This document shows, in pieces, positions 952 through 51,089 of a stretch of 64,000 bases of DNA. Origin of the DNA: an uncultured Roseovarius sp. (GTDB lineage Bacteria; Pseudomonadota; Alphaproteobacteria; Rhodobacterales; Rhodobacteraceae). The notes under the pieces are model-generated. The model was not told the DNA's origin. It did not search any database and worked only from the letters and a program-made list of their open reading frames with translations. A program made the position numbers and the translations under genes. The stretch lies in assembly GCA_947499555.1 (NCBI GenBank), contig CANMOU010000002.1, forward strand, positions 445,001 to 509,000. The letters are read 5' to 3'. How positions within the stretch are numbered: the stretch's first letter is position 1; each line of letters opens with the position of its first letter.

Positions 952-1239
952 ATGATTATCAATCACCCTCTGCTGGGACCACGCGACGCCGCCGAGTTCG
1001 TCTATCTTGGCGACGCGTCACTGATCGACCGGCCTGACTGGCAGGCCGACGATGCAATGGAGCAATTCCACGCCTATGGCTATCTGCGCGAAAATCCAGC
1101 GGGTGAGCACAAGGAACTTTGGTATCACGAGCAGGGGGACCGGTCCTGGCTTGTTGTGACCCGGAACACGCTGACGCATGAGATCACTGCGGTTGAATTG
1201 GCCCGCGACGTGGCGCGCGCACGGGGGCGGGACAAATGA
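952..1239 (+). CDS. soxD: Sarcosine oxidase delta subunit
   Basis: This 95-residue protein is the small structural subunit of heterotetrameric sarcosine oxidase. In the family it binds zinc through Cys/His residues. Here the family-type segments are WYHEQGDRSWLVVTRNT and the opening MIINHPLLGPRDAAEF. A strong ribosome binding site (GAGGAGGGAGAG) lies just before the ATG. Its TGA overlaps the ATG of soxA (ATGA), so the two are translationally coupled. The length is normal for the family. Confidence 0.95.
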   Translation: MIINHPLLGPRDAAEFVYLGDASLIDRPDWQADDAMEQFHAYGYLRENPAGEHKELWYHEQGDRSWLVVTRNTLTHEITAVELARDVARARGRDK

Positions 1240-28228: not shown

Positions 28229-29563
28229 ATGCGCGCGTTTCTAACCGGGCTCGTTCTGACAGTCTTCGCAACGGTTTCCGTGGCTGCGGACGATCAGGTC
28301 ACAACTTTCAAGCTTGATAACGGCATGGACGTCGTTGTGATCGAAGACCACCGGGCGCCGGTCGTCGTCCACATGGTTTGGTACCGAGCCGGAAGTGCGG
28401 ATGAAGACCCCGGGGTCTCAGGCGTGGCGCATTTCCTTGAACATCTTCTGTTCAAAGGCACTAAGACCCTTGCACCGGGCGAGTTTTCTGCCACGGTCGC
28501 GCGCAACGGCGGCTCTGACAACGCATTCACAAGCTACGACTACACCGCTTATTTTCAGCGTATCGCCGCTGACCGGCTCGAACTCATGATGCGCATGGAA
28601 AGCGACAGGATGGTCAACATCCAGCTGGACGGCGACGATATCCTGACAGAGCGCGACGTGATCATTGAAGAGCGCAATCAACGCGTTGAGAACAATCCGT
28701 CATCCCTGTTCCGCGAACAGCACAGCGCGGCTCAGTTTCTGAATCATCGCTACGGTGTGCCGATCATCGGCTGGCAACATGAGATGACCAAGCTGAACCT
28801 TGATGACGCGCTGGCCTTTTACGAAAAGTTCTACGCGCCCAACAACGCCATTTTGATCGTCGCGGGGGATGTGCAGCCCGACGAGGTGCATGAATTGGCA
28901 AAGACCTATTACGGCGTCATCCCTGCCAACCCGGATTTGCCAGAGCGCGCGCGCGCGCAGGAGCCGCGTCAAATGGCCGAACGTCGCGTGATCTATGAAG
29001 ATCCGCGCGTTGCGCAACCCTATGTCACCCGCTCTTACCTCGCGCCCGAACGCGATTCCGGCGCACAAGAGAAGGCTGCGGCCCTGACCCTGCTGGCGGA
29101 AATCCTCGGGGGTGGAACGACCTCAGTTATGACCGAGAAACTGCAATTCGAGAGCCGCAAGGCGGTTTATACCGGCGCTTTCTACAGTGGCTCCTCGCTG
29201 GATGACACGACCTTCCATATCACAATCGCACCCGCTCCAGGCGTCACTCTGGAAGAGGCCGAGGCGGCAATGGACGACGTGGTGGCAGAATTCCTGGAAA
29301 CAGGGATAGACCCCGAGCAGCTTGAGCGAATTAAGACGCAGATCCGCGCCTCGGAAACCTATGTCCGCGATGACGTCAGCGCTTTGGCCAATCGCTATGG
29401 CCGCGCGCTGACCCAGGGGCTGACCGTTGAGGATGTACAGGCCTGGCCAGATATTCTGGCTGCGGTGACCGAAGAAGACATCATGGCCGCCGCGAGGGAA
29501 ATTTTTGCCAAGACCAAAAACTCGGTGACGGGTTATGTCAAAGCGCCGGAGGTAACCCAATGA
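28229..29563 (+). CDS. M16-family zinc peptidase, catalytically competent subunit
   Basis: This 444-residue protein has a signal peptide (MRAFLTGLVLTVFATVSVAA) and an M16 domain. The inverted zinc motif is intact: His68-x-x-Glu71-His72 in VAHFLEHLLFKGT. A third ligand Glu lies around residues 147-148 (RDVIIEERNQ). It is expected to be periplasmic. The following gene overlaps by ATGA and encodes a second M16 protein lacking the zinc motif, so the two likely form a heterodimer like mitochondrial processing peptidase. I chose ATG 28229 over an upstream in-frame start because it opens directly on the signal peptide. Confidence 0.92.
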   Translation: MRAFLTGLVLTVFATVSVAADDQVTTFKLDNGMDVVVIEDHRAPVVVHMVWYRAGSADEDPGVSGVAHFLEHLLFKGTKTLAPGEFSATVARNGGSDNAFTSYDYTAYFQRIAADRLELMMRMESDRMVNIQLDGDDILTERDVIIEERNQRVENNPSSLFREQHSAAQFLNHRYGVPIIGWQHEMTKLNLDDALAFYEKFYAPNNAILIVAGDVQPDEVHELAKTYYGVIPANPDLPERARAQEPRQMAERRVIYEDPRVAQPYVTRSYLAPERDSGAQEKAAALTLLAEILGGGTTSVMTEKLQFESRKAVYTGAFYSGSSLDDTTFHITIAPAPGVTLEEAEAAMDDVVAEFLETGIDPEQLERIKTQIRASETYVRDDVSALANRYGRALTQGLTVEDVQAWPDILAAVTEEDIMAAAREIFAKTKNSVTGYVKAPEVTQ

Positions 29564-30873
29564 TCCGTTTTGTTCTAGCAGCCCTTCTCGTCTTTGCAGC
29601 TCTCCCTGCACGGGCTGGTGTCGAGATCAAGGAAGTGACCACGCCGGGTGGTGTCGAAGCTTGGCTTGTCGAGGATCACAGCATTCCCTTTGTCGCGCTG
29701 GAGCTGCGCTTTCGCGGTGGCGCATCGCTGGACGCACCCGGCAAGCGTGGGGCGGTCAATCTGATGACAGGTCTTCTGGAGGAGGGCGCGGGCGAGCTCG
29801 ACGCACGTGCTTTTGCGCGCGAAGTCGAAGCGCTGGCGGCCTCATTCAGCTACCGGGCGCAGGCCGATTCCATCAGCATTTCGGCACGCTTTTTGTCCGA
29901 GAACCGCGATCAAGCCCTGACGCTGCTGCGAGAGACACTGGTCAATCCACGTTTTGACCAAGATGCGATAGATCGGGTGCGTGATCAGGTGATCTCGGGC
30001 ATTCAGTCTGATGAAAAAGACCCTGAAGAAATCGCGGGCCGCTCGTTTCAATCGCTCGTCTTCGGCGATCATCCCTATGGCAGTTCTCTGAACGGCACAC
30101 AGGACACTGTAACTGCCCTGACACGTGACGATCTTCTGGAGGCGCATGCCGCGACATTGGCACGTGACAGGCTCTATGTGAGCGCTGTTGGTGACATCAC
30201 CGAAGAAGAGCTCGCGGTGATCCTCGATACGCTCCTTGGTGATCTGCCCGAGACCGGCGCGCCGTTGCCGGGCGATGCCGAGCTCAATCTGCCTGGTGGC
30301 ACCAAAGTGGTGGATTTCGCGACACCACAGTCTATCGCGACCTTCGCCCAACCCGGCATTGACCGTGACCATCCCGATTTCTTCGCGGCTTTCGTGCTCA
30401 ACCATATTCTTGGTGGTGGCGGTTTCGAAAGCAGGCTGATGCACGAGGTGCGTGAAAAGCGTGGTCTGACCTACGGTGTCTATTCCTTTATTCTCAACCG
30501 CGACGGTGCCGATGTCTGGATGGGTCGCGTGGCTTCGGCCAATGACCGGGTCGCAGAGGCCGTCGAGGTGATTGGAGCCGAGTGGGAGCGCATTCGTACC
30601 GAGGGCGTGACCGAGCAGGAACTCGATGATGCCAAGACTTATCTCACGGGTGCTTACCCGCTGCGCTTCGATGGCAATGGAACCATCGCCAATATCATGG
30701 TGGGCATGCAGATGGACGGGCTTGGCACAGATTACATCTCGACACGCAATGATAAGGTCAACGCCGTCACTCTCGAAGACGTCAAACGCGTGGCACAGGA
30801 CTTCCTGGATCCTGCCCGCTTAACCTTTGTAGTCGTGGGGCAGCCGGAAAACCTCACCGACACCGTTAACTGA
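29560..30873 (+). CDS. M16-family peptidase homologue lacking the zinc motif
   Basis: This 437-residue protein has a signal peptide (MIRFVLAALLVFAALPARA) and two M16 half-domains. The usual HxxEH is absent: the equivalent region reads KRGAVNLMTGLLEEGAGELD. The C-terminal half keeps the substrate-binding R/Y loop (REKRGLTYGVYSF). It is probably the non-catalytic partner of the preceding peptidase and not a broken gene, because the whole frame is intact. It is translationally coupled by ATGA. Its stop overlaps the stop of the convergent DapA-family gene by eight bases. Confidence 0.9.
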   Translation: MIRFVLAALLVFAALPARAGVEIKEVTTPGGVEAWLVEDHSIPFVALELRFRGGASLDAPGKRGAVNLMTGLLEEGAGELDARAFAREVEALAASFSYRAQADSISISARFLSENRDQALTLLRETLVNPRFDQDAIDRVRDQVISGIQSDEKDPEEIAGRSFQSLVFGDHPYGSSLNGTQDTVTALTRDDLLEAHAATLARDRLYVSAVGDITEEELAVILDTLLGDLPETGAPLPGDAELNLPGGTKVVDFATPQSIATFAQPGIDRDHPDFFAAFVLNHILGGGGFESRLMHEVREKRGLTYGVYSFILNRDGADVWMGRVASANDRVAEAVEVIGAEWERIRTEGVTEQELDDAKTYLTGAYPLRFDGNGTIANIMVGMQMDGLGTDYISTRNDKVNAVTLEDVKRVAQDFLDPARLTFVVVGQPENLTDTVN

Positions 30874-31759
30874 GTGTGTCGGCCAAAGCTTCGCCAAGCG
30901 CGGGATCGGCATTCATTAATGGCGACCGAAGGTTAAGCCAACGGTCGTCATTTGACTGAAGCGCCTTGTAGGCCTTGAGCGCGGGGATCAGCCCACCATC
31001 CTGAATGGCCTTTCGATGGGCATTGATCGGTCCAAGCGCTGCTTCGGCACCAGACCAGTCGCCCGAAAGCGCCAATTCATACATTGCGCGGATTGCGGTC
31101 GCGTTGGTGTTGCAGCTGGCCGAGATACAGCCGCCACCGCCCAGCTTCATCGCATCAATCATGAAGCTCTCCGAGCCGGGAAAAACCGATATGCCCGGCG
31201 CGGCTTCGATAACGCTCCTGGTATTATCCCAATTGCCGAAGCTGTCCTTGTACGCCACGACGATCTCAGGAAAGGCTTTGTTGAGCCGCGCCGATAGGTC
31301 TGGCGTTATGCCAACACCAGAATTCTGAGGAATGTGATAGAGGCAAATGCGCAATGCGCTCGAGCCAACCGCCTCGATCAGTTCACTAAAATAGCGGTAA
31401 TATCCCTCATCATTTGCTTGTGTGAAAAAGAACGGCGGCAGCGTCATCACAGCCGCGCACCCAAGCTGCACCGCATGTTTGCAAAGCGTCAGTGTATCTT
31501 CAAATGCACAAAGGCCCGTGCCGGGCATCAATTGGTCAGGCCGCGCCGTGCCACTGCTTACCAAAAGCTCCAACATATGCATCCGCTCAGCCATTGTGTT
31601 GCTAAGAGCCTCACCGGTCGTGCCAAATGGCGACAAGTAATGCGCTCCGCTCCCAAGACAGCTGGCTGCGTGGCTGAGATAGAGATCTTCAGCGATGCTC
31701 TGATCATCGTTGTAAGGCGTTAGGATCGGCGTAATCACACCGGATAGACGTTCTACCAT
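30866..31759 (-). CDS. DapA-family (DHDPS/NAL superfamily) lyase or synthase
   Basis: This 297-residue class I aldolase-fold enzyme has the pyruvate- or keto-acid-binding GTTGEA motif (FGTTGEALSNT), the catalytic Tyr141 (LYHIPQNSG) and the Schiff-base Lys171 (VAYKDSFGN). The family covers dihydrodipicolinate synthase, N-acetylneuraminate lyase, keto-deoxy sugar acid aldolases and hydratases, so the substrate cannot be assigned. It is unlikely to be the lysine enzyme because it lies at the end of the hyuAB catabolic operon, 16 bases after the dehydrogenase gene. Confidence 0.85.
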   Translation of the reverse strand: MVERLSGVITPILTPYNDDQSIAEDLYLSHAASCLGSGAHYLSPFGTTGEALSNTMAERMHMLELLVSSGTARPDQLMPGTGLCAFEDTLTLCKHAVQLGCAAVMTLPPFFFTQANDEGYYRYFSELIEAVGSSALRICLYHIPQNSGVGITPDLSARLNKAFPEIVVAYKDSFGNWDNTRSVIEAAPGISVFPGSESFMIDAMKLGGGGCISASCNTNATAIRAMYELALSGDWSGAEAALGPINAHRKAIQDGGLIPALKAYKALQSNDDRWLNLRSPLMNADPALGEALADTLS

Positions 31760-31775
31760 TTAAATCGTTCCCTTT

Positions 31776-32744
31776 CTAATAGCCGCGTGTCGGATCCACG
31801 ATGTTGCGCAGCGCCTCACCCGCCTGCCATCGCTTCAAATTGTCTAGAAACATGTCGAAGGATGCCAGATCCCAGCCCTCGTAGACCGCGGAGCAATGGG
31901 GCGAGATCAACGTGTTGGGTAACTCCCAGTAAGGGCTGTCTTTGGGCAGAGGTTCCGTTGCAAAGACATCAAAGGCCGCACCTCTGATCTTCCCATTGGT
32001 CATGGCCTCAATCGCTGCGTCTGGCACAATCACACCGCCCCGAGAGACATCGACCAGAATTGCCGACGGTTTCATGGCCTCAAACGCCGTCGGCCCAATC
32101 AAACCTTTGGTTGACGCAAGCAAAGGGACACAGACACAGATAAAATCAGCCTGGCCCCAAAGCTCGGGCAGGTCGTCAGCTGCATGCACCTCGTCTACGT
32201 TGTCGACAGACTGCGGGCGTGCCCTTGTGCCAAGAACAGTCATCCCAAAGGCTTTTGCCCGGGTCGCCACGGCCTGCCCTGTCTGGCCGAGGCCCACGAT
32301 CAACAGGGTTTTGCCTTGCAACGGGCTGACCATGCGGATTGGCCAGGTTTTTGTCGCCTTATCCCGTTGCAACCGAGGGATATCGAGCGTGAAATGCAGG
32401 CAACAACCGAACACGAATTCCGCCATCATGGCCGAGGCAACGCCCGCCGAATTTGTCACCGTCACACGGTCCGTATCCCACTGGCCAAGATGGTCACATC
32501 CTGAGCCACCAACTGAAATCCATTTCGGTCCCGCATCGCCAAGAAGCTCGTCACGCGGAAATGGCTGGCTGACGTCAAACCGCACGGAATACACGACGTC
32601 AGGACGAAACGCCTCGATTGAGCTGGCCATCTCTGCATTGGAATGGCACGCCATCGCATCGATGTCCGGTGCCGCATCTTGCAAACGTGCAATCATCTCG
32701 TCGGTGACATCGTTATGCACAACGATACGCAACGGATCACTCAT
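31776..32744 (-). CDS. D-2-hydroxyacid dehydrogenase
   Basis: This 322-residue NAD(P)-dependent enzyme reduces 2-keto acids or oxidises D-2-hydroxy acids. The nucleotide-binding motif is IVGLGQTGQAVA (about 149-160). The catalytic Arg235 (VSRGG), Glu264 (ATEPLP) and His283 (SPHCSA) are all present. The start overlaps the MmgE/PrpD stop by four bases. The true substrate is unknown. Its neighbours suggest a hydroxy or keto acid produced from an amino-acid-like compound. Confidence 0.88.
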   Translation of the reverse strand: MSDPLRIVVHNDVTDEMIARLQDAAPDIDAMACHSNAEMASSIEAFRPDVVYSVRFDVSQPFPRDELLGDAGPKWISVGGSGCDHLGQWDTDRVTVTNSAGVASAMMAEFVFGCCLHFTLDIPRLQRDKATKTWPIRMVSPLQGKTLLIVGLGQTGQAVATRAKAFGMTVLGTRARPQSVDNVDEVHAADDLPELWGQADFICVCVPLLASTKGLIGPTAFEAMKPSAILVDVSRGGVIVPDAAIEAMTNGKIRGAAFDVFATEPLPKDSPYWELPNTLISPHCSAVYEGWDLASFDMFLDNLKRWQAGEALRNIVDPTRGY

Positions 32745-34126
32745 GTGTCACATCCTGGCCGGACCAATTCAGCCAGCTCCGCAAAACGTGTTTCAGGTGA
32801 CAACAGCGCATCGCGCATGGCCCAAATGGCCCTAATGCGAGCGGGTGCGATGCGCCCAGCACAAAAGTCATGGAACTTGGCCTCGATATCCGCATCTGGC
32901 CTCCAGGCATCTGGCCCGCCACTCGCGGGTGTATCGGGGGATTGCAGCCTGCGCCCATTCTTCAGCACCACCTCTACATCCGACCAGCGCCCCGCCGGGA
33001 ACCGGGCATTGTGCGCCTCTGTGGAGGCAGCAGAGATACGCGGGATCAGTGACGCGATCTCAGGGTCCGCCAGACCCTGGCCTGTTATATGTGCAGGGGC
33101 GACTGTCCCATGTTTGAGCATGACACCCATGACGAAATGAAGGGAGTATTGCGCCTGCGTCGTGCTTTTCGGCATCTCCGCGAACAACCGCGCCGCCTCG
33201 TCGAAGGTGCGCACCTCGATTGAGGCAACATTCTCCAAGGTGATCTCCGGATGCGCCTGCATCAGGCCCTGCAAAGCATCAAGCGCGGGATGCCCCCAAC
33301 GGCAGCTTGGATAAGGCTTGATGTAGTTCTCTGCTACTGTCCAATACTGCCCCAGATCGCTCCAGTACTGCGCCACGTCCGCAGCCTCTGCCGTAATCGC
33401 AGGTGCGCCGTTAAACCCTCGCATTGCCAGGAGTGCGGAAGAGCACCCGACAAGCGCCCCCATACCGGAGCCGTCATGCAACATTGTTGGATTGTCGATC
33501 TCGCGCATCATCTGGCTTCGGGGGCCATGATATTCGGCGATCCCCATGGCCTGGCGCAGCTGATCTGCCGTCGCCCCACGCAGACGGCAGCCAAGCGCAG
33601 CCACACCAAGCGCGTTCCAAGCGCCTGAGGTGTGATAGTCACTCACTGTGGCATGCAACGACAGGCCGGCCCGGGCCGCGACCTCATAAGACATCGCCAG
33701 CGCCGCAAGCGCGTCTCGACCCGAAAGCGCGGGCATACGTTCCGCAAAGGCAAATAGCGCAGGCACGACAGCACAGCCGATATGGCCCTTTGTCGGATTG
33801 TAGCCGTCATGGCCATCCAGATTGTCGATTTGCGTGGCCAAGGCCCACGCCGCTCCGGGCAAACTTGCCCTGCGGCCGTCAAACAGCATCGTCGCCGCGT
33901 GCTCTGCCGAGCCCGGCCCATGAAAGTCGATGGCAAAATCACGTGCGATTTGGCCCACTTCAAGAACAGTCGCACCGGCAGCGACACCCAGCGTGTCAAT
34001 CAAAAGCGTGGCGCAGTGCCTTAACGCTGCTTCCGGAACCTCCAAATTCTCGTTCAGGACGAATTTGGCAATCTCTGCAAACTGCTGCGAGTCGGGATGC
34101 GCCACTGGATTCAGGGGCTGGCTCAT
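32741..34126 (-). CDS. MmgE/PrpD family protein
   Basis: This 461-residue protein belongs to the MmgE/PrpD fold, which includes 2-methylcitrate dehydratase and cis-aconitate decarboxylase. Family segments are LIDTLGVAAGATVLE, DGYNPTKGHIGCAVVP, YEVAARAGLSLHATV and KPYPSCRWGHPALDAL. Many members of unknown specificity occur in catabolic operons. It is translationally coupled to the racemase-like gene upstream and the dehydrogenase downstream (ATGA both times). No prp genes are nearby, so a methylcitrate role is unlikely. Confidence 0.87.
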   Translation of the reverse strand: MSQPLNPVAHPDSQQFAEIAKFVLNENLEVPEAALRHCATLLIDTLGVAAGATVLEVGQIARDFAIDFHGPGSAEHAATMLFDGRRASLPGAAWALATQIDNLDGHDGYNPTKGHIGCAVVPALFAFAERMPALSGRDALAALAMSYEVAARAGLSLHATVSDYHTSGAWNALGVAALGCRLRGATADQLRQAMGIAEYHGPRSQMMREIDNPTMLHDGSGMGALVGCSSALLAMRGFNGAPAITAEAADVAQYWSDLGQYWTVAENYIKPYPSCRWGHPALDALQGLMQAHPEITLENVASIEVRTFDEAARLFAEMPKSTTQAQYSLHFVMGVMLKHGTVAPAHITGQGLADPEIASLIPRISAASTEAHNARFPAGRWSDVEVVLKNGRRLQSPDTPASGGPDAWRPDADIEAKFHDFCAGRIAPARIRAIWAMRDALLSPETRFAELAELVRPGCDT

Positions 34127-34869
34127 CGGATCATCCGTTCGAAGATCTGTCCAAAGCCGGACGGCGCAGGCCCCAGGTCGGCAAGGTGCAAAGCCTGGAA
34201 CATCATCGCCTGATTGGACGTAATCACCGGCTTGCCCAGCTCCGCCTCAAGCTCAGAGATTATCTCAACACTGCGCATATCCGTACAGGAGAGCACAACC
34301 GCATCTGCCTGCGGGTGATCCGCTCTTCGGCCTAAATCAAGCACCTCCGGGGGCGCCAAGGCCCCTTGCCCTTCGTTGTCCAGCGTCTCCTCAACCTCGG
34401 ATCGCGCAAGCACCTCGAACCCTTCTCGTTCAAGAAAGGCCACAGCCTCATCATTCAGGCTTGGCACATAAGGCGAGGCAAACCCGATCTTCCTTGCATC
34501 AAGCGCTTTCAGCGCAAAGACCAAAGCGCCCGCCGCCGTGACCGTTTTGGCGCCACTCTCATTGGCAATCCGATTGCGAAGCTCTTCATCAAAGGCCGGA
34601 CCATGGGCAAGCGTCGCCGAGGTGCAGCCATACATCACCACGTCGGGTCGTACGCCGTGAATTAGGCGCAGCGGCTCATCCATGTCCGCGGCACCAAGGC
34701 CGGCCATCTGGCCCTCATCGGGGACCTCATCGGCGTCATAGCCCCCGAGCCGCGCAAAGTGCAACGACGCGCCCTTGGGGCAAAGCATCATCATGTCGGG
34801 TTCAAGATTGCTGTTCGTGTAGGGTACGAAGACACCGATACGCGCGCGACCTCTGGTCAAGCTTGTCAT
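34123..34869 (-). CDS. Maleate isomerase / Asp-Glu racemase superfamily protein
   Basis: This 248-residue protein shows the maleate isomerase and arylmalonate decarboxylase pattern. The start RIGVFVPYTNSNLEPDM resembles the maleate isomerase opening. Two potential catalytic cysteines are in place: Cys82 (YGCTSATL) and Cys195 (LSCTDMRS). Having both cysteines suggests racemase or isomerase chemistry; decarboxylases of this family keep one. Within the operon it could racemise or isomerise an intermediate for the following enzymes. Both ends overlap neighbours by four bases. Confidence 0.83.
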   Translation of the reverse strand: MTSLTRGRARIGVFVPYTNSNLEPDMMMLCPKGASLHFARLGGYDADEVPDEGQMAGLGAADMDEPLRLIHGVRPDVVMYGCTSATLAHGPAFDEELRNRIANESGAKTVTAAGALVFALKALDARKIGFASPYVPSLNDEAVAFLEREGFEVLARSEVEETLDNEGQGALAPPEVLDLGRRADHPQADAVVLSCTDMRSVEIISELEAELGKPVITSNQAMMFQALHLADLGPAPSGFGQIFERMIR

Positions 34870-35951
34870 GAAACACCCGCCTCCTGAAGCGCAGCTTCAA
34901 TGAGATGCGCAGCAAGGTCCAGATCATCGGCGACACCCACTGTCGCGCGCAAGCAATCAGGCAGACCCGCACCGCCCTGTGGCCGCAGGAACACACCTTC
35001 CTTTCGAAGGGCCAAATCAACCTGCGCTGCACGGTCTGGCGACGCAAACTGCAACAGCGCAAAGTTGGTAAAACTATCCGGAACATGCAGGCCCAATCGG
35101 CGCATGCGTGTGATGAAGTTATCGCGATGGGCTATGGTCTGTGCCACCGTGTCACGCATGTAGGCCTGATCTTCCATCGCAGCCCGCGCCGCCAATTGCC
35201 CCGCCAAGGCCATGTTGTTCGGATTCATCACCTTGCGCATCTGCGCTGCAATCTCTGCCGGGAAATACCCCCAGCCAACACGCAAACCAGCCAAGCCATA
35301 GGCCTTCGAAAACGTTCGAAGAACAAGCGTGTTGTCCCTGTTCACGAAGTCAAACATCGTCTCGTTCAGATGATCCGCAAACTCGCCATAGGCCTCATCA
35401 ATCACAAGGATCACATTGTCCGGAAGGTCCTCGTGCAGGCGGATCAAGTCGCTCCGTGGAATTCGTGTGCCGGTCGGGTTGCCGGGATTGGCCACAAAAA
35501 CGACCTTCGTGTCTGGGCGCACGGCCTCAAGCAAAGCGTCAATATCCACGCAAAGATCTTTTTCAACCGCCACATCAAACCGCGCCCCGGTCATCCGCGT
35601 GGCCGTCGCAAAGAATGGGTACGCATGTGCAGGGGCGAGCGCCGCGACTTCTGGCGATAGAAAGCAGCGCGCCAGACAGCCGATCAGATCCAATGATCCG
35701 TTGCCGCAAAGAATTTGCGCGGCATCAAGATCATGATGGTCCGCAAGCGCCTGACGCAGATTTGTCCAATCTGGGTCAGGGTAGAGATGCGGATGTGTTG
35801 ATGCGGCCCGAATGGCCTCAGCCACGACAGGGGATGGCGGGCGCAGGCTTTCGTTTTGTGACAACGATACAAGCCGCTTGCCCGCAGGCGCATCTAAATA
35901 GGCGAGCGCATAAGGGGCCATGCGCGCGACGTGCTCAATCGGTTGGGTCAT
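34866..35951 (-). CDS. HisC-like PLP-dependent aminotransferase
   Basis: This 361-residue class I/II aminotransferase has the PLP-binding Lys216 in RTFSKAYGLAGLRVGWG, the NPGNPTGT loop, VIDEAYGEF with the pyridine-binding Asp, and a NGSLDLI phosphate-loop element. It resembles histidinol-phosphate aminotransferase (HisC). No other his genes are here and the operon is catabolic, so it probably acts on another amino acid. I chose ATG 35951 because GGGAGGAAGG precedes it and it overlaps the hyuB stop as ATGA. Confidence 0.87.
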   Translation of the reverse strand: MTQPIEHVARMAPYALAYLDAPAGKRLVSLSQNESLRPPSPVVAEAIRAASTHPHLYPDPDWTNLRQALADHHDLDAAQILCGNGSLDLIGCLARCFLSPEVAALAPAHAYPFFATATRMTGARFDVAVEKDLCVDIDALLEAVRPDTKVVFVANPGNPTGTRIPRSDLIRLHEDLPDNVILVIDEAYGEFADHLNETMFDFVNRDNTLVLRTFSKAYGLAGLRVGWGYFPAEIAAQMRKVMNPNNMALAGQLAARAAMEDQAYMRDTVAQTIAHRDNFITRMRRLGLHVPDSFTNFALLQFASPDRAAQVDLALRKEGVFLRPQGGAGLPDCLRATVGVADDLDLAAHLIEAALQEAGVS

Positions 35952-37606
35952 AGCCCTTCCTCCCAACCATATTTGGTCTGCGCTTCCGAAAGCGAGATCA
36001 ACCCTTCCGCCAGATCCCGCGCAATTGCAGCGCGGTCTCGATCCTTCGGCGGCCCAAATCCACCGCCTCCTGGGGTCTCAAGGATCATTGGCACACCAGA
36101 CGGCACACGAAACTCTCCCTTGCTTGGCAGGTCGTCACCCGTCTCACCAAGGCGCATCCTCCCCTTCGCGCCCGCCTGTCCGCCATGCCGCCCCGCAGCC
36201 GGGTAGAGAATACGCTCGACGGACGGAAACACCAGAAACTCTGCATCCTCCGACGACTGGATTTCTATATGTTGTCCAAGCCCACCGCGATACTGTCCGG
36301 CCCCGCCGCTGTCGGTGCGAAGTTCCCGCTTGGTGATCAGCACAGGGGCTACAGCCTCTGTTGTCTCTATCTGGCTGCCCCAGACCCCGCTTGGAAAGGC
36401 GGTGGCGGAAAGGCCGTCAAGTGACGGCCGCGCGCCGGTGCCTCCATTGTAGACAAGCTCCAGCGCAAAATGCGCGCCGCCATCTCGCGCCGTCTCGGGC
36501 GTGTGGCGCATGGGAAGGTCATAAAGACAAGACGCGCCTTCGGCGGGCACTTTGTCGGGCAAGGCTTGTGACAGGCAGCCATAGACCAGATCAGGTGTCA
36601 TCTGCCCAAGCGAATGGCGCATGGCAACGGGTGCAGGTTTTTGGGCATTCAGAATGCACCCCCTGGGACCGGTCACCCGAAATGGCTCTAATGAACCGGC
36701 ATTGTTGGGAATGTCGGGGCCAATGATACAGCGCAGCGCAAAGACCGAATAGGCAGTCGCGTAGTTGAGCGGCACATTGATGCCCTTGTCCGAGCAGCCA
36801 TCGGTGCCACCAAAATCAAGCAGAATATGGTCAGACGCGATTGTCAGGCTGGCAACAAGCTTGATCGGCTTTTCATAGCCATCGACCATCAATTCGGAGC
36901 GATAGGTGCCTTCGGGCAGTTTGGAAATCGCGTCAATCGTGCCCCGCCACGACGTGTCGATTATGTACTCGGCCAGCGGATCCAGATCATTGAGGCCAAA
37001 TTCCTCCATCATACCTGCGAGCCGTTCCGCACCCGTCTCACAACAGGCGATCAGCGCGTAGATGTCACCTTCATTGGCAATCGGTTCGCGAGAATTGGCT
37101 TTGACAATCTCCATGAGCAGGGCATTGATTTCTCCGCCATCAAGCAGCTTGCAAGGGGGGATCAGCAATCCCTCGTCGAACACGTCAGAGCCTTCCGGCC
37201 CCATGCCTTTGCCCCCCAGATCCGCCAAATGCGATGTACACGAGGTGAAACCAACGACGCGGCCTCCAAGGAAGACCGGTTGCATCAGAAGGAAATCATT
37301 GAGGTGCCCGGACGCAAGCCAGGGATCGTTGGTCATGTAGATGTCACCCGGGCGCATGTTCTGGATCGGGAACCGCTCCAGCAGGTTCTTCACGGCCTCG
37401 GCCATGGTGTTGATGTGCCCCGGCGTGCCCGTCACAGCTTGCGCCAGCATACGCCCACGCAAATCGAATATACCTGCGGAGATATCACCGCTCTCCCGCA
37501 CGATAGGGCTAAAGGCCGCGCGGATCAGCGCCTGACCTTGTTCCTCAACAACCGCCAACAGGCGGTTCCACATAACTTGCAAGCGGGTTTTGGGGATGTC
37601 GGTCAT
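35948..37606 (-). CDS. Hydantoinase/oxoprolinase B family subunit
   Basis: This 552-residue protein is the HyuB-type subunit that pairs with HyuA in ATP-dependent hydantoinases, oxoprolinases and acetone- or N-methylhydantoin-type enzymes. Recognisable parts are MTNDPWLASGHLNDFLLMQP, FTSCTSHLADLGGKG, LLDFGGTDG and the C-terminal PSGVPMILETPGGGGFG. The length is normal. Its start overlaps the hyuA stop by four bases. Substrate specificity (5-oxoproline, hydantoin, N-methylhydantoin or caprolactam) cannot be read from the sequence. Confidence 0.9.
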   Translation of the reverse strand: MTDIPKTRLQVMWNRLLAVVEEQGQALIRAAFSPIVRESGDISAGIFDLRGRMLAQAVTGTPGHINTMAEAVKNLLERFPIQNMRPGDIYMTNDPWLASGHLNDFLLMQPVFLGGRVVGFTSCTSHLADLGGKGMGPEGSDVFDEGLLIPPCKLLDGGEINALLMEIVKANSREPIANEGDIYALIACCETGAERLAGMMEEFGLNDLDPLAEYIIDTSWRGTIDAISKLPEGTYRSELMVDGYEKPIKLVASLTIASDHILLDFGGTDGCSDKGINVPLNYATAYSVFALRCIIGPDIPNNAGSLEPFRVTGPRGCILNAQKPAPVAMRHSLGQMTPDLVYGCLSQALPDKVPAEGASCLYDLPMRHTPETARDGGAHFALELVYNGGTGARPSLDGLSATAFPSGVWGSQIETTEAVAPVLITKRELRTDSGGAGQYRGGLGQHIEIQSSEDAEFLVFPSVERILYPAAGRHGGQAGAKGRMRLGETGDDLPSKGEFRVPSGVPMILETPGGGGFGPPKDRDRAAIARDLAEGLISLSEAQTKYGWEEGL

Positions 37607-39699
37607 TGCTGTTCTCCCGTCCTGAGCAGAAGGATATTGCCAAGAATATCCACCTCCGCCGTGAAATCCGCACTGACAAAGGTGGTTGTCTGCGGCTCAA
37701 CGATCAGGGCCGGGCCCGACAGCTGCGCACCCGGTGCAAGCCCGCTTCTGTCATAGACATCTGCAGTGCGCCTTTCGTTGGCCACTTCGCACAGAATGGT
37801 GGTCTTTCTGTCGGGCCGGGCCAAGGTAGTCTTGGGTCTGCCTTCGGGTGCGGGTGATCTCACGTCCAATGTCGCGACACGCACGAACCAGTTCAGGATC
37901 TCAACTGTCATGCCCGGAACGACGCGCGAGAATTGCGCGCTGTATTCGGCCTCAAAGGCGGCCTGCAGATCTGCTATGTTGTCTGCCGTTAGATCGCCCT
38001 CGGGCAAGGGAATCTCAATCTCATGCCCCTGTCCGCGATAGCGCATGAATGCGGATTTGGTGATCTTCACATCGCTGTCCAGCGCGCCTGCGCGCACAAC
38101 TTCTTCCGCCTCTTCGATAAGGCCATTCAGAAAACCGTTGGTCGCGACAATGTCCAAGTCGTCCAAGGTGCTGTAACGGCTGCGCACGATCTCAAACGAC
38201 ACTGGCGCATGGAGAAAGCCGACCGCAGAGCCGACACCTGGATCTTTGGGGATAAGAATACGTCCCACACCGGCCCGGCGCGCAACACGCGTTGCGTGAA
38301 GCGGGCCGTTGCCGCCAAAGGCGATCATCGTCCGTGCGCCAAGGTCCTTGCCTGACTCAACCGCATGCATGCGGCCGGCTGCGGCCATGTTCTCATCCAC
38401 GATCTCGCTTAGTCCCGCAGCGGCCTCATCGGCGCTTAGGCCTATCTGATTGGCGATGTCGCGATCGATGGCGCGCGCTGCGGCGCATTTATCAATCGCC
38501 AAGCGTCCTTCCGCAAAGCTCTCGATCTCGATCAGGCCCTGTAACACATCGGCATCCGTTACCGTTGGCGCGCTGCCGCCTTTGCCGAAAGCCGCAGGTC
38601 CCGGCTCGCTGCCTGCGCTTTCCGGCCCAACCTGCAATCGTCCGAGACCGTCCACCGAGGCGATTGATCCGCCGCCTGCGCCAATCTCGATCATCTCGAG
38701 CACCGGAATGCGAACCGGCATGCCAGAGCCTTTGATAAATCGTTCCGCTCGGGCAATTTCAAACCGGCGCGCACTTTGCGCATGGTAGTCGTCAATCAAA
38801 CAAAGCTTGGCCGTGGTGCCCCCCATGTCAAAGGAGAGAACTTTCTCGGCATGCGCTTGTGCTGCAATGCGCGCCGCCAAGATCGCACCGCCTGCTGGAC
38901 CGGATTCAACAAGCCGAATGGGCAGGGAGGCGGCGGTTTCCAGCGTGGTCATACCGCCCCCCGCCGTCATCATGAGGATCGGACATGCCACACCTTTGTC
39001 CATAAAGCGGACCTCAAAATCCTCAAGATATGAGGACATCAATGGCTGAATGTAGGCGTTTGCGATCGTCGTGCAAAGACGGTCGAATTCGCGGGCCTCG
39101 GGGCTGACGTCGCTGGAGATAGAAATCGAAATCTTCGGCATCTGCGCCTGCAAGAGCGCCCTGAGGTGCTGTTCATGGGTGGGATTGGCGTAGGCATGCA
39201 GCAGACAGATCGCCACAGCCTCTGCTCTGCTGTCCGTCAACGCTTGAACCAACCCCGGCACAGAGGCCTCATCTAGCGGTGCCTTTTCTTCGCCGGTTGC
39301 CATAACGCGCCCACCAATGGTGAAGGCCCGACTGCGCGGCACCAGAAGGTCAGGTTTCGTCAGGTTGATGTCATACTGGCTATAGCGACGTTCGTACCCT
39401 ATTTCGAGAATGTCGCGGAACCCAGCGCTGGTGATCGTGGCCACCCGCGCACCCCGCCGTTCGATGAGCGCATTTGTGGCCAAGGTCGTGCCGTGAATGA
39501 ACCTCGAGAGATCGCCCCAACCCCGACCAGCGTCCTTTAGGACAAGATCAACACCTTCCAAAGCTCCAAGCGTGGGGTTTGCCGGAGTTGTCGGCGTCTT
39601 GCTGGTTGACAGAATTGAGCCGCCGCTATCCATAAGGACCGTGTCGGTGAACGTCCCGCCAATATCGACGGCGACGCGAAGCCCAGAACCTAATGTCAT
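37603..39699 (-). CDS. Hydantoinase/oxoprolinase A family subunit
   Basis: This 698-residue protein is the HyuA-type subunit with an actin-like ATPase fold. The two phosphate-binding motifs are visible: VAVDIGGTFTDTVLMD near the start and LSFDMGGTTAKLCLID at about 290-310. The middle has DPGVGSAVGFLHAP and the end carries the beta-rich C-terminal domain. It is the first gene of the seven-gene minus-strand operon that ends at 30866. It begins 217 bases from the gyrB stop, where a TTGACA-like element (39894-39899) lies but no convincing -10 box. Confidence 0.9.
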   Translation of the reverse strand: MTLGSGLRVAVDIGGTFTDTVLMDSGGSILSTSKTPTTPANPTLGALEGVDLVLKDAGRGWGDLSRFIHGTTLATNALIERRGARVATITSAGFRDILEIGYERRYSQYDINLTKPDLLVPRSRAFTIGGRVMATGEEKAPLDEASVPGLVQALTDSRAEAVAICLLHAYANPTHEQHLRALLQAQMPKISISISSDVSPEAREFDRLCTTIANAYIQPLMSSYLEDFEVRFMDKGVACPILMMTAGGGMTTLETAASLPIRLVESGPAGGAILAARIAAQAHAEKVLSFDMGGTTAKLCLIDDYHAQSARRFEIARAERFIKGSGMPVRIPVLEMIEIGAGGGSIASVDGLGRLQVGPESAGSEPGPAAFGKGGSAPTVTDADVLQGLIEIESFAEGRLAIDKCAAARAIDRDIANQIGLSADEAAAGLSEIVDENMAAAGRMHAVESGKDLGARTMIAFGGNGPLHATRVARRAGVGRILIPKDPGVGSAVGFLHAPVSFEIVRSRYSTLDDLDIVATNGFLNGLIEEAEEVVRAGALDSDVKITKSAFMRYRGQGHEIEIPLPEGDLTADNIADLQAAFEAEYSAQFSRVVPGMTVEILNWFVRVATLDVRSPAPEGRPKTTLARPDRKTTILCEVANERRTADVYDRSGLAPGAQLSGPALIVEPQTTTFVSADFTAEVDILGNILLLRTGEQQ

Positions 39700-39916
39700 G
39701 TCGTGATCCGAAAGAGGATGTCAGGCATCCGGTTGCAATCTCAAACACAGTGCGCGGTCGCGCGTTTGAGCGTGCTAGACAACCAGATCACACCGCAGGG
39801 CGCGGCGGTCAAAACGCAGGGCAGCAATCAGATGAGACATGACAGCATCGCCTTCCAATCGGTCGCGGCAACGCTGCGGCGAAACGCAGATTCTGTCAAT
39901 AGGGTGCGTGGCACCT

Positions 39917-42502
<2,586 letters not shown>

Positions 42503-48812: not shown

Positions 48813-49703
48813 TCACAGGTTTTGCAAACGTTCGGCCAAGGCGTTGGCGCGCCTGGAGGTCGTCATGACAAGGGACAGTCCAGTCGGCACGAACCGTTTG
48901 AACGGCGCGACAAGGCTTCCTTCGTCAAGGGCGGCACGAACCAGACTGTTGTGGCCAATCAGGACACCCGCGCCGTTGCGCGCCTCTTCAAGTGCGAGCG
49001 CATAGAGTGAATAGTAAGCGGCACCACTAAGGTTGGGAAGCCGCACTCCGGCGGCCTCGGCCCACAGATCCCAATCCGTTCGCCAGCTTGCGTCCAATAG
49101 TAACGTCTCGTTTCGAAGGTCCTCGGGCGATCGGATTCTTTCGGCGATGTCTGGCGCGCAGACCGGACCGATCAAATCAGGTTCCAAGATCGTTTCACCG
49201 CGCTCGGCACTTGGCCTGGCAAGAAACAAAGTGATGTCGAAAACCTCTCTTTTCAGGTTCGGCGGCATTTCAAGTGCCGTGACGGATATCCGTGTTTCGG
49301 GAAATTCCGCGCGGAGAAGAGACAGTCGTGACGGCAGCCAAAGCTGCGCGATGCCGGGCAGTGCTGCAATTTGAATGGCCTGGCCCGGCGCCGCATCCTG
49401 CAATTGTTGAATGGCGAGACCGAGACCATCGAAAGCTTCGGTGAATGCGGGCGCGAGGCGCGCGCCGGTCTTTGACAGGATGACACCATGAGATGTCCGC
49501 TCGAAAAGCGGTGTTCCAACCCAATCCTCTAGCGACTTGATGTGTTGCGATATCGCGCCCGGGCTTACTGATAACTCCGCAGCCGCTCTGGCAAAGCCAC
49601 CCAACCGTGCCGCTGCCTCAAAAGCGCGCAAGGCATTGAGATGTGGGCCTTTGGGTCTGGGTGGCGAGATCAAATTTTCTAGCCTTAGTTTTTCTAAAGT
49701 CAT
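48813..49703 (-). CDS. LysR-family transcriptional regulator (GcvA-like)
   Basis: This 296-residue regulator has an N-terminal winged HTH (LNALRAFEAAARLGGFARAA, then SPGAISQHIKSLEDWVG) and a LysR substrate-binding domain. The form is close to the GcvA branch. It is divergent from the SHMT-fold gene with a 72-base spacer, the usual arrangement for a LysR regulator and its target. A perfect 14-base palindrome covers its start codon. A glycine- or amino-acid-related inducer is plausible but inferred. Confidence 0.88.
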   Translation of the reverse strand: MTLEKLRLENLISPPRPKGPHLNALRAFEAAARLGGFARAAAELSVSPGAISQHIKSLEDWVGTPLFERTSHGVILSKTGARLAPAFTEAFDGLGLAIQQLQDAAPGQAIQIAALPGIAQLWLPSRLSLLRAEFPETRISVTALEMPPNLKREVFDITLFLARPSAERGETILEPDLIGPVCAPDIAERIRSPEDLRNETLLLDASWRTDWDLWAEAAGVRLPNLSGAAYYSLYALALEEARNGAGVLIGHNSLVRAALDEGSLVAPFKRFVPTGLSLVMTTSRRANALAERLQNL

Positions 49704-49715
49704 TTATCGATAAAT
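49702..49715. promoter_or_regulatory. Palindromic operator candidate between the LysR gene and the SHMT-fold gene
   Basis: ATTTATCGATAAAT is a perfect 14-base palindrome overlapping the LysR gene start codon. Binding there could autorepress the regulator while leaving the divergent gene open. It does not match a textbook T-N11-A box exactly. Confidence 0.4.
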
Positions 49716-49775
49716 TGGTTTGCCGCCAAGGTCCAGCCGAGTGATGATCCGGCAAGAGAAATCGGGAGCGCGATC

Positions 49776-51089
49776 ATGACCCTTGCGACAAGAAACTGGG
49801 TGCCGTCTGCCTGCGAAGGCCTGGTTCAACGCATTGCGAAAGAGACGGCATCATCAGACTCGGCAGGGATTGTGAGGCGCATCGCCGATCTGATCGACGA
49901 CAACCGCCGCATTCACGAGCAGGATTGCTTCAACCTCAACCCCGCCACAAACGTAATGAACCCGCGCGCCGAGGCCGTTTTGGCACAGGGATTGGGCTCT
50001 CGTCCGTCGCTGGGATATCCAGGCGACAAATATGAGATGGGGTTAGAGGCGATTGAGGAAATCGAAGTGATTGCTGCCGAACTGGCGGCAGAGATCTTTC
50101 AGGCGAAGTTCGCCGAGATCCGTGTGGCCTCGGGGGCGATGGGCAATCTTTACAGTTTCATGGCGACCTGTCGGCCCGGCGATACGATCATTGCGCCGCC
50201 CGCAGCGGTTGGGGGGCATGTGACGCATCATGGTGACGGATGTGCGGGGCTTTATGGTCTGCGGTCCTTGCCCGCACCGGTGAATGCGGATGGCTACACG
50301 GTTGATCTTGACGGCTTGCGGCGGATGGCACGGGAGGCGCAGCCCAAGCTCATCACCATTGGGGGCAGTCTGAACCTGTTTCAGCATCCGGTGGCGGAGG
50401 TGCGCGAGATCGCCGATGAGGTGGGTGCAAAGGTTTTGTTTGATGCCGCCCATCAATGCGGGGTGATCGCTGGAAAGGCCTGGCGCGATCCGCTTAGTGA
50501 AGGCGCTCATCTGATGACGATGAGCACCTACAAGAGCCTTGGCGGACCAGCCGGGGGGCTTATCGTGACAAATGAGGCCGACCTTGCGCAACGCCTGGAC
50601 GCGATTGCCTTTCCCGGGATGACGGCGAATTTCGACGCTGCGAAATCTGCGGCACTGGCGATCACGCTGTTGGATTGGCGGGAGCACGGCGTGGCCTATG
50701 CAGCGGCGATGATCGAACTTTCCCGGCTTCTGGCCGACGCGCTGGCGGCGCGGGGAGTGCCAGTCTTTGCGACAGCGAACGGCATGACGCAGTCGCACCA
50801 GTTCGCGGTCGAGGCGGCGCGATATGGAGGCGGACAGGCGGCGTCCAAGGCGCTGCGCAAAGCCGGGTTTCTGGCCTGCGGAATCGGATTGCCGATAGAG
50901 GCAGTTGACGGTGACATGAATGGCCTGCGCATCGGGACGCCGGAGCTGGTGCGCTGGGGCGTGACGCCGACGCACCTGCCGGAGCTGGCGGATTTGATCG
51001 CCGAAGGCTTGTCGGCGGACCCCGAAAAAGTTGCGCCGCGCGTCAAAGAGATGCGCGCGGCGTTTGATCAAGTGCACTACGTCATATGA
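49776..51089 (+). CDS. Serine hydroxymethyltransferase-fold PLP enzyme
   Basis: This 437-residue protein follows the SHMT fold. The segments are NLNPATNVMNPRAEAVLAQG, then LGYPGDKYEMG, then the PLP-binding region FDAAHQCGVIAG with Asp223 and His226. The PLP Lys is Lys253 in STYKSLGGPAGG. True SHMT has THK(T/S)LRGPRGG here, so the Tyr and the missing Arg set it apart. The family includes alpha-methylserine and other 3-hydroxy-amino-acid aldolases. The gene is divergent from a LysR regulator, its likely controller. I do not assign a substrate. Confidence 0.82.
   Translation: MTLATRNWVPSACEGLVQRIAKETASSDSAGIVRRIADLIDDNRRIHEQDCFNLNPATNVMNPRAEAVLAQGLGSRPSLGYPGDKYEMGLEAIEEIEVIAAELAAEIFQAKFAEIRVASGAMGNLYSFMATCRPGDTIIAPPAAVGGHVTHHGDGCAGLYGLRSLPAPVNADGYTVDLDGLRRMAREAQPKLITIGGSLNLFQHPVAEVREIADEVGAKVLFDAAHQCGVIAGKAWRDPLSEGAHLMTMSTYKSLGGPAGGLIVTNEADLAQRLDAIAFPGMTANFDAAKSAALAITLLDWREHGVAYAAAMIELSRLLADALAARGVPVFATANGMTQSHQFAVEAARYGGGQAASKALRKAGFLACGIGLPIEAVDGDMNGLRIGTPELVRWGVTPTHLPELADLIAEGLSADPEKVAPRVKEMRAAFDQVHYVI

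Follow-up and report, generated by a model that had tools for sequence, protein, structure and literature searches.

HyuA/HyuB-type enzymes catalyze the ATP-dependent opening of amides, and in the pathway of one of them, caprolactamase CapAB, the ring-opening enzyme is followed by an aminotransferase. The operon described here, which also couples a HyuA/HyuB pair to an aminotransferase, lies in a stretch of 64,000 nucleotides from an uncultured Roseovarius sp. (GenBank assembly GCA_947499555.1, contig CANMOU010000002.1, positions 445,001 to 509,000), hereafter called the window. It is an uncharacterized, conserved and presumably catabolic operon made up of a four-gene core, optional partner genes and a conserved leader.

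CapAB is the best named NCBIfam match of both subunits. However, the aminotransferase is here HisC-like, an isomerase, an MmgE-type protein and a dehydrogenase are added, and the scores fall far below the caprolactamase cut-off of 1000 bits for each subunit (446.3 for HyuA and 181.7 for HyuB). Among solved sequences, the closest to HyuA and HyuB are those of N-methylhydantoinase/5-oxoprolinase (7hk5), a single fused chain of 1288 residues, whereas two genes are present here and the conserved set contains no carbamoylase-type gene. The isomerase resembles maleate cis-trans isomerase (Nocardia 2xec/2xed and Pseudomonas putida 4fq7) in its fold, both cysteines and the Asn/Tyr/Asn positions, but identity is only 28%, and no maleamate or pyridine genes were found beside it in the loci examined. 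Its best NCBIfam model is that of the ectoine-utilization protein EutA (103.3 bits), although the cut-off of 318 bits was not reached.

On the Ti plasmid pTiEU6, according to the excerpted text of PMC6733357, HyuAB genes lie near opine catabolism genes and are suggested to act by opening lactam opines; an mmgE gene is also part of that region. That region thus shares with the present loci HyuAB genes next to amine-oxidation genes, plus mmgE; on the other hand, those excerpts mention no isomerase or HisC-like gene, and the oxidases are of the opine type instead of MTTB-type genes. The original prediction knew of no pathway with the present combination of genes, and none turned up in searches of the Creative Commons-licensed full text of PubMed Central. 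Search listings for the literature on ergothioneine, homarine and MTTB proteins, and four excerpts from the reference list of PMC12478193, contained nothing tying in these genes.

Organization of the operon

The genes follow each other on the minus strand, and are referred to below by the single letters given in parentheses.

39775-39840, minus strand: leader open reading frame (ORF), 21 codons, MSHLIAALRFDRRALRCDLVV; stop codon TAG 75 bases before hyuA
37603-39699, minus strand: HyuA (A), ATPase-type subunit of the hydantoinase/oxoprolinase family; core gene
35948-37606, minus strand: HyuB (B); core gene
34866-35951, minus strand: HisC-like pyridoxal 5'-phosphate (PLP) aminotransferase (T); core gene, ATG start, with an in-frame TTG also at 35966
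34123-34869, minus strand: two-cysteine isomerase of the maleate isomerase/EutA/arylmalonate decarboxylase (AMDase) type (E); core gene
32741-34126, minus strand: MmgE/PrpD protein (M), closest among solved relatives to iminodisuccinate epimerase; partner, 37/80 loci
31776-32744, minus strand: D-2-hydroxyacid dehydrogenase (H); partner, 47/80 loci
30866-31759, minus strand: DapA-superfamily lyase (D); lineage-specific add-on, 8/80 loci

Five junctions are exact 4-base overlaps and the dehydrogenase-DapA junction is a 16-base gap, in agreement with the layout originally predicted for the seven genes. The DapA gene shares 8 bases with the M16 peptidase gene at 29560-30873, which converges on it. 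In relatives, with gene starts taken from a simple in-house caller, a 4-base overlap was observed at the HyuA/HyuB (49/73), HyuB/aminotransferase (50/70), aminotransferase/isomerase (41/74), isomerase/MmgE (25/32) and MmgE/dehydrogenase (14/31) junctions, and at none of the eight dehydrogenase/DapA junctions. This being the commonest junction, the overlaps are not due to chance.

The family names previously given to the seven proteins were backed by both Pfam and NCBIfam. No operon protein reached a curated NCBIfam cut-off among the models listed for it (the best 25 for T and the best 22 for H), and the proteins are therefore relatives, not proven members, of characterized enzymes. The operon had also been described as devoid of a transporter and a regulator; this proved correct for transporter genes and protein regulators, but the small ORF just upstream of hyuA had been missed.

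Conservation of the core and of its partners

A one-genome-per-species scan rendered 191 relatives, and counts out of 80 refer to the best 80 of these. In the 75 of those loci with more than 4.3 kb of sequence before E, all four genes A, B, T and E were present in 71, while A and B were missing in L068 and L088 and T was missing in L124 and L125. H was found in 47 of the 80 loci, M in 37 and D in 8. Complete seven-gene loci, also 8/80, comprised five from Roseovarius (L055, L056, L062, L063 and L077) and one each from Nioella sediminis (L084), from Rhodobacteraceae SB2 (L094) and from a metagenome-assembled genome labelled Deltaproteobacteria (L102); D was in pieces in L059 and L083. Thus, A-B-T-E constitutes a conserved core, M and H are frequent partners and D is a lineage add-on. 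The earlier notion of seven genes forming one fixed unit had to be given up, and DapA was dropped as a core step because of its rarity. For the four-gene core, the scattering of genes without conserved order that the original prediction had named as evidence against itself was not seen.

A second sample comprised 198 genomes of the family, in which E orthologues were defined by a threshold of at least 254 bits, the next match scoring 134 bits. A close E orthologue was present in 20 of them. Besides the window, A, B, T and E occurred together in 16 of the 19 E-positive genomes, two had A, B and E without T (L040 and L053), and the last (L049) was a short contig containing E plus only a T-like fragment. 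Several genomes are shared between these loci and the 80-locus set, which means that neither count is independent of the other.

Linkage extended beyond adjacency. The HyuA clade was present in 19/20 E-positive versus 2/178 E-negative genomes, T in 17/20 versus 2/178, M in 16/20 versus 10/178 (one of the 10 being a partial match) and H in 13/20 versus 5/178. Where M was not adjacent, it was retained elsewhere in the genome (G031, G193 and G043). Protein distance matrices among A, B, T, E, M and H were correlated with r values of 0.80 to 0.92, and those involving D with values of 0.56 to 0.89 on 28 pairs; shared ancestry alone accounts for part of this correlation. Co-occurrence, co-localization and co-divergence were therefore all observed, as expected if the genes form a functional set.

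The operon is common to many marine roseobacter-type bacteria. In the lineage of the window it is located between gyrB and the M16 peptidase gene. Among 26 genus members without DapA at this site, gyrB and the peptidase gene were separated by about 40 to 70 bases in three (L205, L221 and L226), and the remaining 23 showed no gyrB in the 1.5 kb that lie past the peptidase gene. Relatives carry the operon at other sites, on chromosomes and plasmids. E was detected in 16 of 60 sampled genomes of the genus and in 7 of 385 sampled class genomes, both samples including the genome of the window itself. The operon behaves as a cassette that is gained and lost as a unit. Given its frequency in the family and genus samples and its presence on both chromosomes and plasmids, its substrate is probably common where the carrier bacteria live.

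Some loci depart from the usual arrangement. In a Leisingera methylohalidivorans plasmid (L138:11812-14004), a 730-residue gene annotated as an aminotransferase occupies the position of HyuB and T, through fusion or decay; no HyuA is listed before it in a gene table that is incomplete. A decaying copy in G167 (L171:885-9160) has an intact DAO-GcvT gene, HyuA and HyuB matches in pieces, an intact-looking aminotransferase gene and, at its end, fragments of a peptide ATP-binding cassette (ABC) importer 80 to 88% identical to that of L111. The class-level relatives L181 to L183 were set aside as a separate branch: L181, which lacks the leader, carries HyuAB (51 and 59%) together with E next to housekeeping genes, and L182 and L183 have E without HyuAB.

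A conserved probable leader peptide upstream of hyuA

When 43 dereplicated upstream regions were scanned for gapped words, counts reached 15 loci, compared with at most 6 in 20 shuffles. The conserved element is coding, with about 21 codons that end in RRxTGCDLV[V/A/T] (consensus ...RRATGCDLVV). In the 70 upstream regions that served both for training the leader model and for the residue counts, RR and LV were present in all 70 and the CD pair in 59. The stop codon directly followed the motif in 51 of them, came after 1 to 3 residues in 9 and after at least 4 residues in 5, and no stop preceded hyuA in the remaining 5. Single-base codon differences among 44 dereplicated loci were overwhelmingly synonymous (4362 versus 396 nonsynonymous, with a normalized ratio of 0.038), these figures being pairwise counts and not independent events. 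An ATG was located exactly 11 codons before RR in 25/45 loci, compared with 0/45 and 1/45 in the other two frames, and 10 to 12 codons before RR in 35 of the 45 dereplicated loci. The leader is hence under coding constraint, and the conserved small ORF constitutes a new observation.

The leader was found in nine of ten held-out loci (the exception being L053), in all three plasmid loci L135 to L137, in L118 and in the more distant L170, L180 and L184. No leader motif was found in the decayed L171, in the distant L181 or in the other HyuAB clades (L149 to L152). A gammaproteobacterial metagenome-assembled genome (L108) scored below the threshold, yet it contains RRHLKHDLVV followed by a stop 62 bases upstream. 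Among 1124 control genes, only two were preceded by sequences scoring above 10 bits, the next score being 9.6; both were T of L068 and L088, the first operon gene in these two loci without HyuAB. An exact DNA pattern searched in 108 genomes gave eight matches, six of them at this operon, and the reversed control pattern gave none. Of the other two, the one in G071 reads RRRTGCDFV and lies away from the operon, and the one in G097 is interrupted by an in-frame stop. This pattern is strict: it found five of the eight E-positive genomes among the 108 and passed over the genome of the window as well as G055 and G073, in which the leader departs from it. Compared with plasmid records, one leader peptide gave one match, with an expect value of 4, which is unannotated and located just upstream of hyuA in Leisingera thetidis. 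Peptide fragments were not found in print in a literature text search.

Other explanations of the upstream conservation were considered. A riboswitch or fixed RNA structure was rejected: there was no Rfam match, and folding of the spacer was weak and not universal (mean z of -0.89, with 11/40 below -1.5; the window's own spacer had a z of -2.4). A palindromic operator was likewise discarded, the best palindromic dyad occurring in 6/43 upstream regions, not above the largest shuffle count of any dyad (6). No match to an intrinsic terminator or a sigma-70-type promoter was obtained within 39600-40000.

The shortness and conservation of the ORF, its purifying selection at the codon level and its fixed place before the first gene are what would be expected of a translated regulatory leader peptide. 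Its position, near-constant length and conserved C terminus fit a regulatory leader, and it probably controls the operon. We take TnaC-type leaders as the closest parallel, since these too have about 20 codons, precede a catabolic operon and are conserved near the C terminus with a variable N terminus. However, the sequences are unrelated, and among the 70 versions of the present leader five have no stop before hyuA and five run on for at least 4 residues. The leader is possibly a ribosome-stalling sensor. More specifically, and tentatively, it might be a new ligand-sensing nascent peptide that stalls the ribosome together with the substrate or first product, thus letting expression continue into an undescribed pathway in which a methylated, nitrogen-containing ring compound is N-demethylated in connection with its ATP-dependent opening. 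If so, it would add to the metabolite-sensing nascent chains, of which few are known. The leader would also give direct access to the identity of the substrate: a reporter fusion should respond to the right compound, turning an orphan pathway into a screen. It is rather improbable that the ORF instead encodes a small protein with a function of its own or a peptide precursor that the operon enzymes process. While the conservation of its C-terminal residues, its near-constant length and the frequent CD pair would suit such a product, the N terminus varies among relatives, the ORF always lies 5' of the first operon gene, even when that gene is T (L068 and L088), and the conserved core has no known peptide-modifying enzyme.

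In the Ruegeria plasmid locus L135 (17839-20070), genes for an NHLP-clan peptide and a radical S-adenosylmethionine C-methyltransferase of the type acting on ribosomally synthesized and post-translationally modified peptides are found 3 kb beyond the core, with a divergent cyclase gene in between.

Predicted functions of the enzymes

HyuA and HyuB showed Hydantoinase_A/Hydant_A_N and Hydantoinase_B Pfam domains over the cut-off and at full length. Against N-methylhydantoinase and 6yra, respectively, HyuA reached 368 and 324 bits and HyuB 207 and 157 bits; against the carboxylases, HyuA reached at most 225 bits and HyuB at most 75. These hydrolase scores make ATP-dependent opening of a cyclic amide, as originally proposed, the best reading of the predicted pair. 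In L090 (5085-8921), HyuA and HyuB form one open frame, a natural fusion of both subunits. Other HyuAB clades, with identities of about 50% or less (four loci, L149 to L152), were set aside; they have different neighbours, including a different aminotransferase in L150.

T scored 256.1 bits to HisC (TIGR01141; cut-off, 276.55), and the PLP lysine and other motifs of the fold were conserved in relatives. In E, C82, C195, Y134 and N165 were present in 76/76 aligned rows and N19 in all 68 rows with a letter at that position. These five residues align with maleate isomerase, the two cysteines at its presumed catalytic positions. The predicted model of E (predicted local distance difference test [pLDDT] of 88.7) fitted maleate isomerase best, with template-modelling (TM) scores of 0.86 to 0.88, compared with about 0.6 for hydantoin racemase. 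E remained below the NCBIfam cut-off for arylmalonate decarboxylase (86.5 bits versus 225) and exceeded that of the broad Pfam Amdase model (88.8 over 25.9). Its nearest paralogues (L139 to L148 and L054) offered no functional hint, since a HyuA/HyuB match lay beside none of the 11.

M carries MmgE_PrpD Pfam domains, with 20.5 bits to 2-methylcitrate dehydratase PrpD (cut-off, 950). By sequence as well as by its predicted model (pLDDT of 91.0), it was closest to iminodisuccinate epimerase (2hp0/2hp3; 21 to 22% identity, TM scores of 0.81 to 0.83), with cis-aconitate decarboxylases narrowly behind (0.79 to 0.80). H has the Pfam 2-Hacid_dh_C NAD-binding domain, and R235, E264 and H283, presumably its catalytic Arg/Glu/His, were present in 46/46 rows. 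D scored 111.8 bits to dihydrodipicolinate synthase (TIGR00674; cut-off, 206.15), with K171, presumably the Schiff-base lysine of the superfamily, and Y141 in 8/8 rows.

Neighbouring genes in other hosts

In other hosts, the neighbours of M, H or the core included genes for a corrinoid methyltransferase of the MTTB type, a DAO-GcvT fusion, a class-V PLP enzyme and a LysR regulator. SoxBDAG-type genes lay between M and H in L133, L047 and L158, the fourth subunit having no family match. A close MTTB clade (at least 68% identity) was present in 9/198 genomes, 6 of them E-positive, and in 8 of the 9 (the exception being G056) no more than about 5 kb separated the gene from M or H. With at least 75% identity, the class-V PLP enzyme occurred in six genomes, in all cases within about 5 kb of E, M or H; the class-V PLP family as a whole occurred in 76/198. 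Downstream of the operon, L086, L106 and L113 carry genes for a family-5 ABC importer (binding protein, two permeases and ATPase) and an M81 peptidase; L111, L098 and L119 carry most of this set, and in L184 importer genes are located upstream of the operon. The whole seven-gene operon of the Roseovarius locus L063 is preceded by a LysR gene together with MTTB and DAO-GcvT genes in divergent orientation, and L077 shows the same layout. The presence of corrinoid- and folate-type N-demethylases, LysR and a peptide-type importer beside M or H suggests that the substrate is plausibly an N-methylated cyclic amide.

In G175, which lacks A, B and E, genes for M, SoxBDAG-type proteins, MTTB, DAO-GcvT, the class-V PLP enzyme, H, an interrupted T and a peptide ABC importer all occur within about 30 kb (L158:4302-19897 and L159). 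In L117 (10889-14461), two creatinase/M24-type genes and a PALP enzyme gene follow the core, a set that we take to resemble ectoine-utilization genes.

Proposed pathway and alternatives

From these data we infer the substrate class, the order of steps and the mode of action of the leader. The operon would serve the catabolism of a small cyclic amide (lactam, imide or hydantoin type), probably one often methylated at the nitrogen in nature, a reading that we hold to be somewhat better than even. HyuAB would open the ring with ATP, and E would convert the ring-opened product by cis/trans isomerization or epimerization. T would then strip the amino group to give a 2-oxo acid, H would interconvert this and the D-2-hydroxy acid, M would dehydrate or epimerize the product of the H step, and D, in Roseovarius-type and a few other hosts, would cleave the result. 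In other hosts, corrinoid (MTTB-type) and folate-linked (DAO-GcvT and SoxBDAG-type) N-demethylases and a peptide-type ABC importer would accompany the pathway, and expression would be under the control of the 21-residue peptide, translated from the leader ORF shortly before the first gene. The pathway put forward in the original prediction is retained as regards a functional gene set and ring opening by HyuAB, and not as regards seven genes acting as one unit. Several findings weigh against our proposal. T is missing in L124, L125, L040 and L053, and A and B in L068 and L088, so no single step order fits every locus. The MTTB genes of L040, L063 and L077 belong to other clades (33 to 46% identity; that of L063, 33 to 38% to other MTTBs) and MTTB-type genes are numerous in the sampled genomes, so that some neighbourhoods may be due to chance and the link is suggestive, not proven. 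At the thresholds used, both the close MTTB clade and the class-V PLP enzyme are missing from the genome of the window, and N-methylation therefore cannot be required in every host. Finally, the Fisher tests on co-occurrence ignore the relatedness of the genomes.

A more specific version of the cyclic amide pathway, in which T and H act in reverse, follows the logic of maleamate degradation on an unsaturated lactam or imide: HyuAB would yield a cis-unsaturated acid, E would turn it into the trans form, M would hydrate it, H would oxidize the resulting D-2-hydroxy acid to a 2-oxo acid, and T would aminate this product or D split it. It is the less likely version, though one to be taken seriously, since E keeps the constellation and fold of maleate isomerase and the family of M includes hydratases and dehydratases; nevertheless, M is by a slight margin nearest to an epimerase, and E is also near EutA and AMDase models. 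Membership of HyuA and HyuB in the superfamily of acetone and acetophenone carboxylases would allow them to carboxylate a ketone, the remaining genes processing a 3-oxo acid, but the scores of both subunits favour hydrolases and the operon has no conserved gene for a third carboxylase subunit, which makes this a remote prospect. Least probable of all, and already disfavoured, is the view that the genes are loosely assembled, kept together by their position and each serving an unrelated known pathway. The rarity of D, the absence of M and H from many loci and the change of locus neighbours between hosts speak for it, whereas the persistence of core order and overlaps across many hosts, the retention of non-adjacent M and the shared leader weigh against it.

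Other genes in the window

At 26 kb from the operon, the window contains genes of a heterotetrameric sarcosine-oxidase type, SoxB-like at 19-939 (cut by the window start) and SoxA-like at 1236-4184. At 48813-51089, a LysR gene is divergent from a gene for a serine hydroxymethyltransferase-like PLP enzyme.

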